Shown here piece after piece: positions 2,096 through 23,719 of a stretch of DNA of 33,084 bases (the first letter of the stretch is position 1; the number at the start of each line of letters is the position of its first letter). The stretch spans positions 1-33,084 of the forward strand of contig JAIVJP010000285.1 of NCBI GenBank assembly GCA_020199975.1, given 5' to 3'. The translations under genes and the position numbers were made by a program. Origin of the DNA: Acidobacteriota bacterium (GTDB lineage Bacteria; Acidobacteriota; Blastocatellia; Pyrinomonadales; Pyrinomonadaceae). Under the pieces are notes generated by a model. The model had not been told where the DNA came from. It searched no databases and was given only the letters and a program-made list of their open reading frames with translations.

Positions 2096-3593
2096 GTTTT
2101 CCGCGCGCGACCGCCGAGGGTCGGTTCAGCGTTACTCGGACTGCGCGCCACTTGCCGTCCCGAGTCCTGTTGGTGGGCCGATATGCCAGACTGTAAACCG
2201 TACCCAGGTCGGCCACCACGCGTTCGTAAGCCCCTGCGAGATCCTGTAGGCGCTCCACCTGGTAGAACACTCCGCCGCCGGCTTCAGCCATTTCTTTCAT
2301 CCGTTCATATCCCAGGTCGAACGCTTCAGGCTGCGTATCAAGAGGATTCAGCGCTTCATATTCTGTATTGAGCCACAAGGTGTATAGCACGCCATCAAAC
2401 TCGCGAACCCGACTAAGCATCTCGCCGTAGGGAAGCTTTGAACCATCGCCCTGCACTCCCGGGACACGCCCGTCAAGTCCATCACTCATCATGACAATTG
2501 CTGTTCGACGCGTGTTTTTCGTGCTCTTTAGGAGATGGGTAAGTGAGAAGTCTATGGCATCGTAGGCCTTTGTATCTCCTGTTGCTGTGTCAAGTGCAGT
2601 TACCCTTTGCCGCAAGACTTCACGGTCTAACGTGACTGGTGAAATGACCGTCGGACGACCGGCAAACGAAATGATTCCGATGCGATCTGACGGTCGCGCT
2701 GCGTCCACGAAACGCAGCGCCGCCGCGCGAATCAATTTCACAACATCACGGGTCGAACCCGAAACATCAATTAGCAGAATCAGATCAAAAGGAGCAGACG
2801 CCGACTCAAACTGGATTAAGCGCTGTTCGATTCCGTCCTCAAATAGCCGGAAGTCTGACTGCGTCAAGCCCAAAACCCCGCGATTGGTATTTCGATCTAT
2901 GACACTGAGATTTAGAGTGGCAAGTTGCGAGTCAACGCGAATAACGTCCCCCTCGCTTATTTCTTCAGAGTCGCTCAGGTTCGCAGGTGTTCCAGCCCCT
3001 TTCGAAATGTTTTCAGAACCCAGCAGCCTCGGTGGTCCGGAGACCTCGGTCGTACCATGATTCAACGTGCTGTCTAAAGCGAGTGTGATCTCTCCCCGCT
3101 CCGTCGCGATCCTGAGAACATAATCGCCAGCACCTGAGCGTGTTTGTAAGACGTGACCACCACCACTTAAGGGTGGCCCTAGCTCTGACCTGATAGTTCC
3201 ATTTGTTGTCCTGGCGCTGATATCCACGTTGAGAGAATGTGAAAGCTCTGCGCGTATGTCACCCGAAACCGACTTTAGAGAAGCCGACGCCAGTACCCCT
3301 CGCAGCGAAATTGAACCAACCCCGGTGATAATCTCGGTGTGGGAACCCTCAGGAAGTTTTACTGTGAGCGTAATGGCCGCCCGAGGGTCAACCGGTGTGC
3401 GAATGACAGAGATTACGAGCAGCTTCGCTCTGTTCTCTATCTGATTCTCAATTCGAACTCGGGCAGCAGCGGGCACGTCAATGCGCACTCCGTCATCTGC
3501 GGCTCTACTCGACCTGGCTCCCAAAAACGGCAGGCACGAAACGAGGCCCAGCAAGAAAACTCTGAATAGCAAGGCGCGTTGAGCTAAAAACAT
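2076..3593 (-). CDS. VWFA-related domain exported protein with N-terminal adhesin-like beta domain
   Basis: This 505-residue protein has a signal peptide (LLFRVFLLGLVSCLPFLGA). About residues 35-175 form a beta-repeat region with SVSGDIRAELS, TTNGTIRSEL and TERGEITLAL, resembling DUF4097-type putative adhesin repeats. A VWFA-related module follows (RVDSQLATLNLSVI, DFRLFEDGIEQRL), then a VWA domain with the MIDAS motif DVSGST and a later MMSDGLDG motif. It ends in YSLAYRPTN-DGKWR like its downstream paralogue, which overlaps it by 20 nt. Its ATG is 11 nt from the stop of the truncated pilT-like frame, and no convincing ribosome site precedes it. That fits loss of its native upstream region in a deletion. 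The exact ligand is unknown. Confidence 0.87.
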   Translation of the reverse strand: MFLAQRALLFRVFLLGLVSCLPFLGARSSRAADDGVRIDVPAAARVRIENQIENRAKLLVISVIRTPVDPRAAITLTVKLPEGSHTEIITGVGSISLRGVLASASLKSVSGDIRAELSHSLNVDISARTTNGTIRSELGPPLSGGGHVLQTRSGAGDYVLRIATERGEITLALDSTLNHGTTEVSGPPRLLGSENISKGAGTPANLSDSEEISEGDVIRVDSQLATLNLSVIDRNTNRGVLGLTQSDFRLFEDGIEQRLIQFESASAPFDLILLIDVSGSTRDVVKLIRAAALRFVDAARPSDRIGIISFAGRPTVISPVTLDREVLRQRVTALDTATGDTKAYDAIDFSLTHLLKSTKNTRRTAIVMMSDGLDGRVPGVQGDGSKLPYGEMLSRVREFDGVLYTLWLNTEYEALNPLDTQPEAFDLGYERMKEMAEAGGGVFYQVERLQDLAGAYERVVADLGTVYSLAYRPTNRTRDGKWRAVRVTLNRPSAVARGKHGYYAN

Positions 3594-4988: not shown

Positions 4989-5389
4989 CTGAACTTGCCT
5001 GGCAACTTCAAGCTGCCCTTCGAGTCGCTTCTTTTCAATACGTCGGGAGAGATGATTGGCTCAGTCGTCAGCGCCACATGGCCGATAATCCCCTCGCCAA
5101 GTTTCAGGTGGAGTTTCGAAAGTTCGTCTATGTCATATCCCCTAACTGCTTCGGCCTCGAACACGCAGGGTTCCTCACCGCGAGCCAGAGCCGCCTGATC
5201 CGCGCACCTCAGGACAAAAATACCTGCCGCATCGTAGGGAATCAGAGAATCGAGCGTCCCCATAACAAGATTGAGAACTTCTTGCAGATCGAGCGAGCGG
5301 CTGATCTTTTTGGTGATGTCGAGCAGCATGCGCAGTTTATCGGTCGTGGTCAGACCTTGCGCAGGCGCCTGTTTTAACTGTTCATGCAT
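4814..5389 (-). CDS. GAF sensor domain (N-terminal part of broken GAF-SpoIIE phosphatase gene)
   Basis: Residues 1-117 are the start of a GAF-domain protein: a helix with TDKLRMLLDITKKISRSLDL, then QEVLNLVMGTLDSLIPYDAA and GEGIIGHVALTTEPIISPDV. In GAF-SpoIIE proteins this last motif is followed by about 65 residues finishing the GAF domain and then the EKKRLEGQLE helix. Here, just after PDV (about 5037-5041), the sequence jumps to that helix in a different frame. Everything after residue 117 in this ORF (LKRSDSKGS onward, to 191) is out-of-frame translation of the phosphatase gene. I estimate a net loss of about 200 nt from the family architecture. As written, the sensor is incomplete and cannot be joined to its phosphatase. 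The ATG is at 5389, with only a weak ribosome site. Confidence 0.78.
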   Translation of the reverse strand: MHEQLKQAPAQGLTTTDKLRMLLDITKKISRSLDLQEVLNLVMGTLDSLIPYDAAGIFVLRCADQAALARGEEPCVFEAEAVRGYDIDELSKLHLKLGEGIIGHVALTTEPIISPDVLKRSDSKGSLKLPGKFSWSCCRQMIRSWKGLTSAPITSRPRKFPGTITTGCQSTTTRFLWWSLTFQEKECRQLC

Positions 5390-19529: not shown

Positions 19530-20162
19530 CTACTCCGGCTTCCGCCGAGTGTTCGCGGGTCGCGATTCGGTTGGCTCGGACGACGCGCTGTTCTGCGATC
19601 GTCGCACCTCTAAACGACGCCGAAGGAGGTCTACTTCTGCATCCGCCGTTGCCACTGCGGATTCCAGCCGAACCCGGCTGGTTTCCAGAATTTTCATTTG
19701 TGCCAGGAGTCGAGATCTGTCGCTCTCAAGTTTCCGCCGCCGCGCCTCTCGCGCTTCTTCGGGACGCGTGGAGCCAAAGGCCGTTTCCTGCATCTGACCC
19801 AGTTTGTCGTTTAGCCTGTTAACTTGATTGGAGAGGCTGTTGATAGTCTGCTGCATATCCTCGGCATCGGCTGACGGTTTCGCCGCGGTCTTGCCTTTCT
19901 TTGGCTTGGTCTCTGAGGTTTGAGTCGTTTCGTCCGCCTCCGCGTCAGGGGTTTCGTCCGCGGTACTGATGATTTTGTCGCGGCTCTCAGGCGCTTTTTG
20001 CTCTTCGGCGGCAGTTATTACCGGATTGGTGATAACCGGTCGGACAACGCGACGCGGGCGCCGCCTTTTGCGCGTCTGGGCATCGGCATCTATCAAACAA
20101 AAGCTGATAGCCACTAAAACAGCAACGAAAAACGTGGTCTTTCGAATAAATTGACTTTGCAT
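19530..20162 (-). CDS. Exported coiled-coil protein of unknown function
   Basis: This 210-residue protein has a signal peptide (TTFFVAVLVAISFCLIDADA). A very basic patch (TRKRRRPRRVVRPV) and an acidic, Thr/Glu/Lys-rich low-complexity linker (ETPDAEADETTQTSETKPKK) follow. From about residue 103 to 190 it is a long coiled coil (MQQTINSLSNQVNRLNDKLG; SRLLAQMKILETSRVRLESA). I do not recognise a named family. It starts at ATG 20162 with a good GAGGAG site. It is the first gene of a minus-strand run with the small CoxI-like gene 22 nt on. The 174 nt upstream, to the valS-nadC stop, show no hairpin or repeat that I can support. Confidence 0.7.
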   Translation of the reverse strand: MQSQFIRKTTFFVAVLVAISFCLIDADAQTRKRRRPRRVVRPVITNPVITAAEEQKAPESRDKIISTADETPDAEADETTQTSETKPKKGKTAAKPSADAEDMQQTINSLSNQVNRLNDKLGQMQETAFGSTRPEEAREARRRKLESDRSRLLAQMKILETSRVRLESAVATADAEVDLLRRRLEVRRSQNSASSEPTESRPANTRRKPE

Positions 20163-20336: not shown

Positions 20337-23327
20337 TCAAAATGGCTGGATCTGAAAAGTCACCTTCATCGCCCGCGCTGAGTTCGTGAGCGCGCTGATG
20401 CTGATCGTGTTTGCGCCAGCCTCAGCATACGCACGCACATTTTGCAGCGTGATGTTGCCGGAACACTCAACGCTAACTACTGATGAGAGGTTCCTTGCCA
20501 CAGCCCCCAGGCGCGCTACTTCTTCGGCGGGCAGGCCTTCAAGCAAGAGAATGTCGGCCCCATTGCTAATTGCCTCTTGCAGATCGATCTCGCTCGAAAT
20601 TTGAACTTTGATCTTGTGGAGATGACCAAGTTTCTGTTTGGCGTTTCTAACAGCATCCGCCACGCCGCCCGCAATCGCGAGGTGGTTAGACGTGATTAGC
20701 ACTCCGTCATCCAGGCCGAGGTGGCTGCAACGCCCGCCACCGAGAAGCACGGCATACCTCTCCAGCATTCGCATCCCCGGCGTGGTGTCAAGGGAATCGA
20801 CAATGGCGGCGCCAGTGCCCTCAACTGCGTGGACAAACTGATTAGTCAGAGTGGCCACGGCGGAGAGTCGCTGCAGCAGGTTCAAAGCAACGTGCTCACC
20901 CGCAAGCAGCACGTCGGCGAACCCGACCATGCGCGCAATCACCTTGCCGGCTTCGATTTCCTCGCCATCGGCGACGAATGCTTCGAGCTGAGGCTGGGAG
21001 TCCAGGGAAATGAAAACTTCTTCGGCTGCCTCGAGTCCCGCGACAATCATTTTTTCCCCGGCGACGAAGCGACCGCGGGCGCGCGTGTTGCGCGCCACGA
21101 TCGCCTGGCTCGTCTCTTCCGGCGCTCGTTCGACGAAGTTTGCATTACCCAGCTGTGCCTCAAGCTTGCTTGCCTCCGCCTGGAATTTGTCCTGCTCCTT
21201 CCGCAGTCTTTGGCGCTCTTGTTCAAAATCAATAAGACCTTCGAGTGGAATAGCCACTTCCGCACCGCCCGACAGTACAGCCCGGGCAGAGGCTCGCGGT
21301 GCATTCAGTCGATCGCTGATCGAAACGTCGGACGCCCGCGCCAATCTGGAGATCTGGTCGACGCTCGCGGAAAACACTCTCCTTAACTTCTCATCGGGAG
21401 CGCTAATCAGGATCGGGACGCGTTCGCCCGGCTTGATATTCATTTCCGAACGGATATTACGTACTCTCGACATCAGGTCGATTACCGCTTGCATCTGCCA
21501 TTCGGCCTCCTCGTCGATCAACTCGGTCGCGCTCAGCGGATAAGCGGTAAGCATGATTGTCGGCGAAGCGCCTGCGTAAGACTTGTTAAGCAGCTTTGCA
21601 TTGGCACCCGGCAAACGCTGCCACAACTCCTCGGTAATGTACGGCATGAAGGGATGCAGTAGCCGCAACGCCTGCTCAAGTACGGTCAAGAGGCGCGTCC
21701 GAGCTTCAGTCCGTCGCGTTGTTGCCTCCTCAGCCGTGACCTCCGTTTTAGTCAGTTCAATGTACCAGTCGCAGAAGTCGTTCCAGAAAAAGTGATACAG
21801 GGTTTGCACCGCCTCGTGGAACTGATAACCGGAAAGCGCCTCATGCATATCGGCGGTGGTCTTGTTCAAGCGAGACAGTATCCAACGATCGTGCAGAGCC
21901 TGCTCTTGTACTCCGACCCGCAGACTCTCTGGATCAACAGCTGCTCCCTCTGAATTCATCAGGCAGAATCGTGCTGCATTCCAGATCTTGTTGGCAAAGT
22001 TGCGATAGGACTCGACCTGCTTCTCGTTCCAGCGAATGTCAGTGCTGCCCACGGAAGCCAGCATGATGCGGGTGGCGTCTACTCCGTAATTATCGAAAAC
22101 CTCGAGCGGGTCAACACCATTCATCTTCGTCTTTGACATGCGCTGGCCCTCTTTGTCGAGAATGGTCCCCGTGACGAACACCTCGTCGAACGGACGCTGG
22201 CCCATGAACTTCATTCCCATCATCACCATCCGCGAGACCCACAGAAATATGATGTCGCGGGCTGTAACCAGCACCGAGGTGGGATAGAACGTTTTCAGGT
22301 CCTCAGTTTCTTCCGGCCAGCCCAGTGTCGAGAAAGGCCAGAGCGCGGAAGAAAACCACGTGTCCAGCACATCCTGGTCCTGGGTTAACTCATCGGTTCC
22401 GGCTTTAGCACAGGCTTCTTCATATGAACAAGCGACCACGACCTTACCGTCTTTCGTGTACCACGCGGGAATTTGGTGTCCCCACCACAATTGACGCGAG
22501 ATAGTCCAGTCGCGCAGGTTCTCCAGCCAGTTGGTATAAACTTTCTCGTAAGGCACTTCGGGAACAAATTGAGGCCTCTTCTCCTTGACCATCAGGTCGA
22601 GCGCCAGGTCGCGCAGCTTATCCATCCGACAAAACCACTGCAGCGATATCAAAGGCTCAATCACGGTTTTACATCGTTCGCACTTGGAGATCGAGAACTC
22701 GTAATCATCCACCTTCTCGAGCAGTCCCAACTCCTCAAATTCCGCAACCACCTTCTGCCGAGCCTTGTATCGATCCAGTCCTGCGAAGTCTGAGCCGGCG
22801 GCTTCTGTCATCTTTGCGTGCGGGTCGATCACCACGACTTGCGTGAGACTGTGGCGCAGGCCAATCTCGTAGTCGTTGGGATCGTGAGCAGGCGTAACCT
22901 TAACCGCGCCTGTTCCAAATTGAGGATCGACAAACTCGTCCGCGACTACCGGAATTTCGCGGCCAGTGAGCGGGAGCAACAGTGTCGCCCCAATGAGGTT
23001 GCGATAGCGTTGGTCATTCGGGTTTACGGCCACAGCCGTATCCCCAAGCATTGTTTCCGGCCGAGTGGTCGCTACGGTGACGCCGCCTTGGCCGTTTTTT
23101 GCAGGGTAACGGAGGTAATAGAGCTTTCCCGGTTGTGGATCCTTTTGCACTTCGAGATCGGAAAGCACGGTCTGGTCGTTGGGACACCAGTTAACAATGC
23201 GATTCCCTCGATAAATCAATCCTTCTTCGTAAAGACTCACAAACACTTCCCGAACAGCGCGCGACAAGTCCTCATCCATCGTAAACTTCTCGCGCGACCA
23301 ATCGACCGACGCGCCTTCGCGCCGCAT
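20337..23327 (-). CDS. valS: Valyl-tRNA synthetase (most of it) fused in frame to a degenerate NadC-like domain
   Basis: Residues 1 to about 738 are the body of class I valyl-tRNA synthetase, which charges tRNA-Val. It includes the editing domain ([35 protein letters not shown]), the signature loop [18 protein letters not shown] (KMSKS equivalent), the anticodon-binding domain and the start of the C-terminal coiled coil ([20 protein letters not shown]). Right after the coiled-coil NFVERAPEE the frame continues without a stop into 258 residues of NadC (quinolinate phosphoribosyltransferase) fold, from [13 protein letters not shown] to the C-terminus. The NadC part lacks about 30 N-terminal residues and most active-site residues: ERT is EHV, DTRKT is DSLDT, NHR is CSH/SHL, LIKDNH is LITSNH. 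The true valS start is upstream in another frame; ATG 23327 is internal. Confidence 0.85.
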
Positions 23328-23719
23328 TTGCTTCGTGATTTGTCCCCCCGACTCGCTCTTCCATTTCCAGACGCGCTAACAAATTTTTCGCGTCCGAGAT
23401 CGTGACGCGACACACCTTCCTTTTTCAATTCGCGGGAGACCATCAACTGGGTCGAGATGCCGGCATGATCCATTCCGGGAAGCCACAACGTGCGGAACCC
23501 ACACATTCGCTTGTAGCGGGTGAGCACGTCCATCATCGTGTGTTGGAGTGCGTGGCCCATATGCAGCGAACCGGTGACATTGGGCGGAGGAATCACAATA
23601 GAGAAGACTGTCGCCTGGGGGTCGCGATTGATCTCGGGAGCAAAGTAGCCTTCCTGCTCCCATCGCGCATAGTGATGTTCCTCAGCTTCCCTGGGGTCGT
23701 ACTGTTTAGGAATATCCAT
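23237..23719 (-). CDS. valS: Valyl-tRNA synthetase N-terminal fragment (frameshifted)
   Basis: Residues 1-114 are the start of Val[21 protein letters not shown], then the HIGH-motif region [20 protein letters not shown] and [20 protein letters not shown]. After GREKFV (23378) the frame is wrong. Adding one base between 23377 and 23378 restores [17 protein letters not shown] and joins the long downstream ORF, so the remaining residues to 160 are out-of-frame. This is a one-base deletion, real or in the assembly. The repaired enzyme would have about 870 ValS residues, within the normal family range except for a shortened C-terminal coiled coil. Start ATG is at 23719. The 199-nt spacer upstream contains a small GGGTGA-TT-TCACCC palindrome but no T-box that I can see. 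Confidence 0.88.

Follow-up and report, generated by a model that had tools for sequence, protein, structure and literature searches.

A putative quinolinate phosphoribosyltransferase-fold pseudoenzyme encoded beside valS in Pyrinomonadaceae, and its probably artefactual fusion to ValS

The window analysed here, a stretch of 33,084 nucleotides from an Acidobacteriota bacterium of the family Pyrinomonadaceae, carries on its minus strand an open reading frame of 996 aa (20337-23327), in which ValS is followed in frame, from about residue 739, by a quinolinate phosphoribosyltransferase (QAPRTase) domain of the NadC type. In hmmscan searches against NCBIfam, valS was matched at residues 1-744 with 968 bits and nadC (TIGR00078) at residues 738-993 with 225 bits, against a cut-off of 198. 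Both QRPTase_N (PF02749) and QRPTase_C (PF01729) of Pfam were matched in the C-terminal domain, which places it in the NadC family with its N and C domains and type II PRT fold. The original prediction, made from the letters of the sequence, had described the same frame and domain order, and all the motifs it quoted (EHVALN, DSLDT, CSH, LITSNH, VQIS and LLEG) are found in the frame; it omitted the strand, however, and valS does not begin at the ATG at 23327.

The real start lies at 23719. Alignment with the relatives G009, G008 and G012 shows that one base of valS is absent near 23377, because of which the first 115 codons or so sit in another frame. On the minus strand, valS thus consists of a 5' part at 23377-23719 and a main part at 21114-23376, from which the frame is called at the internal ATG. 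The NadC-type domain, termed NadC1 here, occupies 20337-21113 on the same strand, matches QAPRTase folds in the PDB, and corresponds to residues 27-284 of the gene that relatives carry, of which the window lacks the first 26 codons. Alignments with G009, G008, G012 and G006 place the point of absence, 158 bp in all, between 21113 and 21114. Sequence present in G009 is also absent elsewhere in the window: 99 bp with abrupt ends at 3440-3441, in a VWA gene; 208 bp at 5039-5040, where a GAF-SpoIIE phosphatase gene is split into two frames; and 165 bp with abrupt ends at 19780-19781, in the coiled-coil gene adjoining the valS/nadC1 frame.

The valS-linked copy occurs, within a group of Acidobacteria from soil, in nine genomes of one Pyrinomonadaceae genus (g1), the window included, with 63-97% identity. 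The genus also has a second, intact NadC (NadC2), which is encoded in a nadC-nadA-nadB cluster. In all nine NadC1 copies the equivalents of K140, H161, K172, D173, E199, D222 and H274 (M. tuberculosis NadC numbering, transferred by motif and not by superposition) are lost, as is that of N223 in eight; the position of K172 is T and that of D222 is E throughout. The roles of E199, E201, D222, N223, G270 and H274 are those generally assigned to these residues in the active enzyme. In the window copy the equivalents of R105, R139, K140, H161, R162, K172, E201 and D222 are replaced: the basic quinolinate site (R105, R139, R162, K172) reads H, L, H and T, and the acidic residues of VEVE and LDN have given way to VQIS and LEG, so that neither set expected of an active NadC is present. 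In M. tuberculosis NadC, exchange of R105, R139, R162 or K172 singly for Ala renders activity undetectable (PMC4065032). Four of the five residues essential by mutation in that enzyme are replaced in the window copy, the fifth, H175, being kept.

The damage is concentrated on the ligand site. Canonical NadC1 and NadC2 share 64 invariant columns, of which 14, chosen by the present authors, are ligand columns. The genus fully keeps 32 of the 50 others but only 1 of the 14 (p = 0.0002), and the former ligand positions differ freely between species. An AF2 model of NadC1 (pLDDT 85) matches 1x1o with a TM score of 0.90 in Foldseek, at 42% identity in the fold alignment. A pLDDT below 50 is confined to the N-terminal end and to loops 110-114 and 132-134, which directly follow two former active-site motifs. 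The QAPRTase fold is thus kept in the predicted structure, as had been anticipated. NadC1 shares with NadC (TIGR00078; PDB 1x1o, 1qpr) the full fold, the structural motifs and a score above the family cut-off, but differs in that eight active-site equivalents are replaced in the window copy and the gene is not linked to nadA or nadB. ModD (TIGR01334) is a NadC homologue of mod operons which functions outside NAD synthesis. It resembles NadC1 in being a NadC-like protein outside that pathway, although it is encoded beside mod genes and NadC1 beside valS, and identity with ModD was rejected at 71.3 bits against a cut-off of 178.85. Loss of catalytic motifs with conservation of the fold is what NadC1 has in common with pseudoenzymes generally (PMC10211241). 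Neither that review nor literature searches yielded a QAPRTase pseudoenzyme, and no link between valS and nadC was found in the searches.

A pocket rebuilt for a new catalytic or ligand-binding activity is rather unlikely, yet part of the evidence points in this direction. Besides the fixed T and E at the positions of K172 and D222, N143, H144 and E216 (window domain numbering) are invariant in g1 over deep divergence, and the copies of the neighbouring genus g3 have lost acidic ligands but retain the basic quinolinate site for the most part. Judged by sequence, residues fixed in a new state in the g1 pocket (T141 and E192 in the same numbering) could leave room for a new ligand. The remaining pocket positions, on the other hand, vary widely, and no candidate substrate is known.

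Under a codon model, omega is 0.075 in the nine g1 copies of NadC1 and 0.128 in the five closest (clade A). The NadC2 copies in those two sets of genomes give 0.105 and 0.161, and canonical NadC1 in the rest of the family gives 0.068; pairwise dN/dS estimates agree. None of the nine frames contains a stop, while pairwise dS among them ranges from 0.1 to saturation and about four stops per gene would be expected from a neutral drift of 0.3 per site. These values indicate strong purifying selection on NadC1. A functionless relic held in place only by its overlap with valS could account for the freedom of the former ligand positions and for the missing gene in four genomes of the genus, but such a relic should not have an omega no higher than that of its active paralogue, stop-free frames at this divergence, or structural columns retained so much better than ligand columns, and this reading is quite improbable. 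With catalytic residues lost and the protein maintained by selection, the C-terminal 258 residues are, on sequence grounds, a QAPRTase-fold pseudoenzyme. The original prediction had come to the same view from one copy, leaving it to be seen whether homologues share the substitutions and whether a second canonical nadC exists; the active-site losses turn out to be common to the nine g1 genomes, and the second nadC is present in the genus.

The fusion to ValS, by contrast, is not supported. In every relative checked, valS and nadC1 (about 284 aa) are separate open reading frames, and the nadC ATG overlaps the valS TGA as ATGA in eight of eight relatives from the genus, with similar overlaps at most other family loci examined. 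Compared with its closest relative G009 (95% identity in ValS, 97% in the NadC domain, there a separate gene), the window lacks exactly 158 bp, comprising 27 ValS codons and the stop, the ATGA overlap and 26 NadC1 codons, all of which are present in G009, G008, G012 and G006. A real 158-bp deletion in this species or strain, by which the NadC fold would replace the coiled-coil end of ValS, is very unlikely: the frame does stay open across the join, which only a third of deletion lengths permit, but the fused frame is unique among 106 family genomes with a match, the join shows no microhomology, the same valS carries a one-base frameshift even though no other valS was found in the source MAG, and three comparable abrupt-ended deletions (165, 208 and 99 bp against G009), one of them breaking the GAF-SpoIIE gene, lie elsewhere in these 33 kb of the contig, which seems to contain several faulty joins. 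The MAG comprises 561 contigs and is 79% complete; that its sole valS should bear two lesions points to assembly faults. The fusion is therefore very probably not biological, and the 158-bp deletion is most probably a fault of assembly. The alternative offered originally, in which a deletion joined valS to an independent pseudoenzyme gene, describes the anatomy correctly, with the deletion itself most probably being artefactual. The case illustrates that faulty assembly can yield a convincing false gene fusion. Taken together, the locus is best read, with a probability of roughly 0.78, as a QAPRTase-fold pseudoenzyme normally encoded by a separate gene overlapping the valS stop and joined to valS here by a 158-bp deletion, probably an assembly fault.

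The phylogeny places NadC1 of g1 and of the neighbouring genera g3 and g46 in one clade (support 100/98) and NadC2 in a separate group (100/100). In g3 the D173 and H274 equivalents and other residues on the PRPP side are gone, while in g1 the damage extends to both the quinolinate and the PRPP sides and is complete in the window copy. NadC2 and NadA are present in all nine g1 genomes that carry NadC1 and also in G137 and G138, NadB adjoins them in most g1 genomes, and in a sample of 297 genomes of the phylum nothing from outside the genus exceeds 55% identity to NadC2. A partnership of NadC1 with NadC2 was rejected as a general reason for retention, since most g3 genomes and G088 have NadC1 without NadC2.

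In g3, five of the seven genomes lack NadA, a NadB scoring above the cut-off and a second NadC, as does G088 of g46; NadA and NadB are thus absent in six of the eight genomes of the two neighbouring genera. The same three absences apply to G029, a genome outside the main clade whose NadC1 (contig L076, 4026-4877) is partly eroded, with NHR changed to VSR and LDN to FDS, and in which the same erosion has probably begun independently. NadA was found in none of seven genomes with a degenerate NadC1 and no NadC2, against 21 of 23 inspected genomes with an intact NadC1 (p = 2e-5, only a guide as the genomes are not independent); G025 and G082 have an intact NadC1, but NadA was not found in them. 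In four g1 genomes (G003, G005, G011 and G014) NadC1 is missing from an otherwise syntenic valS locus and is therefore dispensable. At this place in G003 (contig L048, 4092-4717) two short genes lie downstream of valS that look toxin-antitoxin-like by eye. G005, which is 97% complete, has neither kind of NadC, lacks NadA as well as any NadB above the cut-off, and presumably obtains NAD from salvage. As a source of quinolinate, the kynurenine route fails to explain the pattern, because 3-HAO exceeds its cut-off in only 4 of 42 genomes, of which G004 alone belongs to the genus and none to g3 or g46. NAPRTase_N gave only weak matches, below the cut-off, which suggest NAD salvage.

The simplest reading of these data, and a likely one, is that de novo NAD synthesis disappeared in an ancestor, that the orphaned NadC1 would then have eroded yet been retained, and that the genus may later have acquired a foreign nadC-nadA-nadB cluster which restored the pathway. 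NadC1 would now most likely serve as a non-catalytic scaffold, ligand binder or regulator produced together with ValS, perhaps in a second role which it already held as an enzyme, though the data constrain this step weakly. A non-catalytic binding or regulatory role is favoured overall, and the retained fold, the low dN/dS and a ligand site that is both erased and variable favour a protein-protein or structural one. The coupling to valS is weak evidence for ValS as the partner because this constant coupling is ancestral.

The family offers a graded natural series, from active enzyme through loss of the PRPP side and loss of the whole active site to loss of the gene. In this series one metabolic enzyme becomes a pseudoenzyme once its pathway has gone, and the active paralogue that the same cells contain serves as a control. 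More speculatively, and with considerable doubt, the loss of its pathway could have turned an orphaned NAD enzyme, within one family, into a non-catalytic protein that is conserved, has a rebuilt pocket and is translated together with ValS; this protein would persist alongside the active NadC that was regained, and may link NAD or pyridine levels to the supply of valyl-tRNA.
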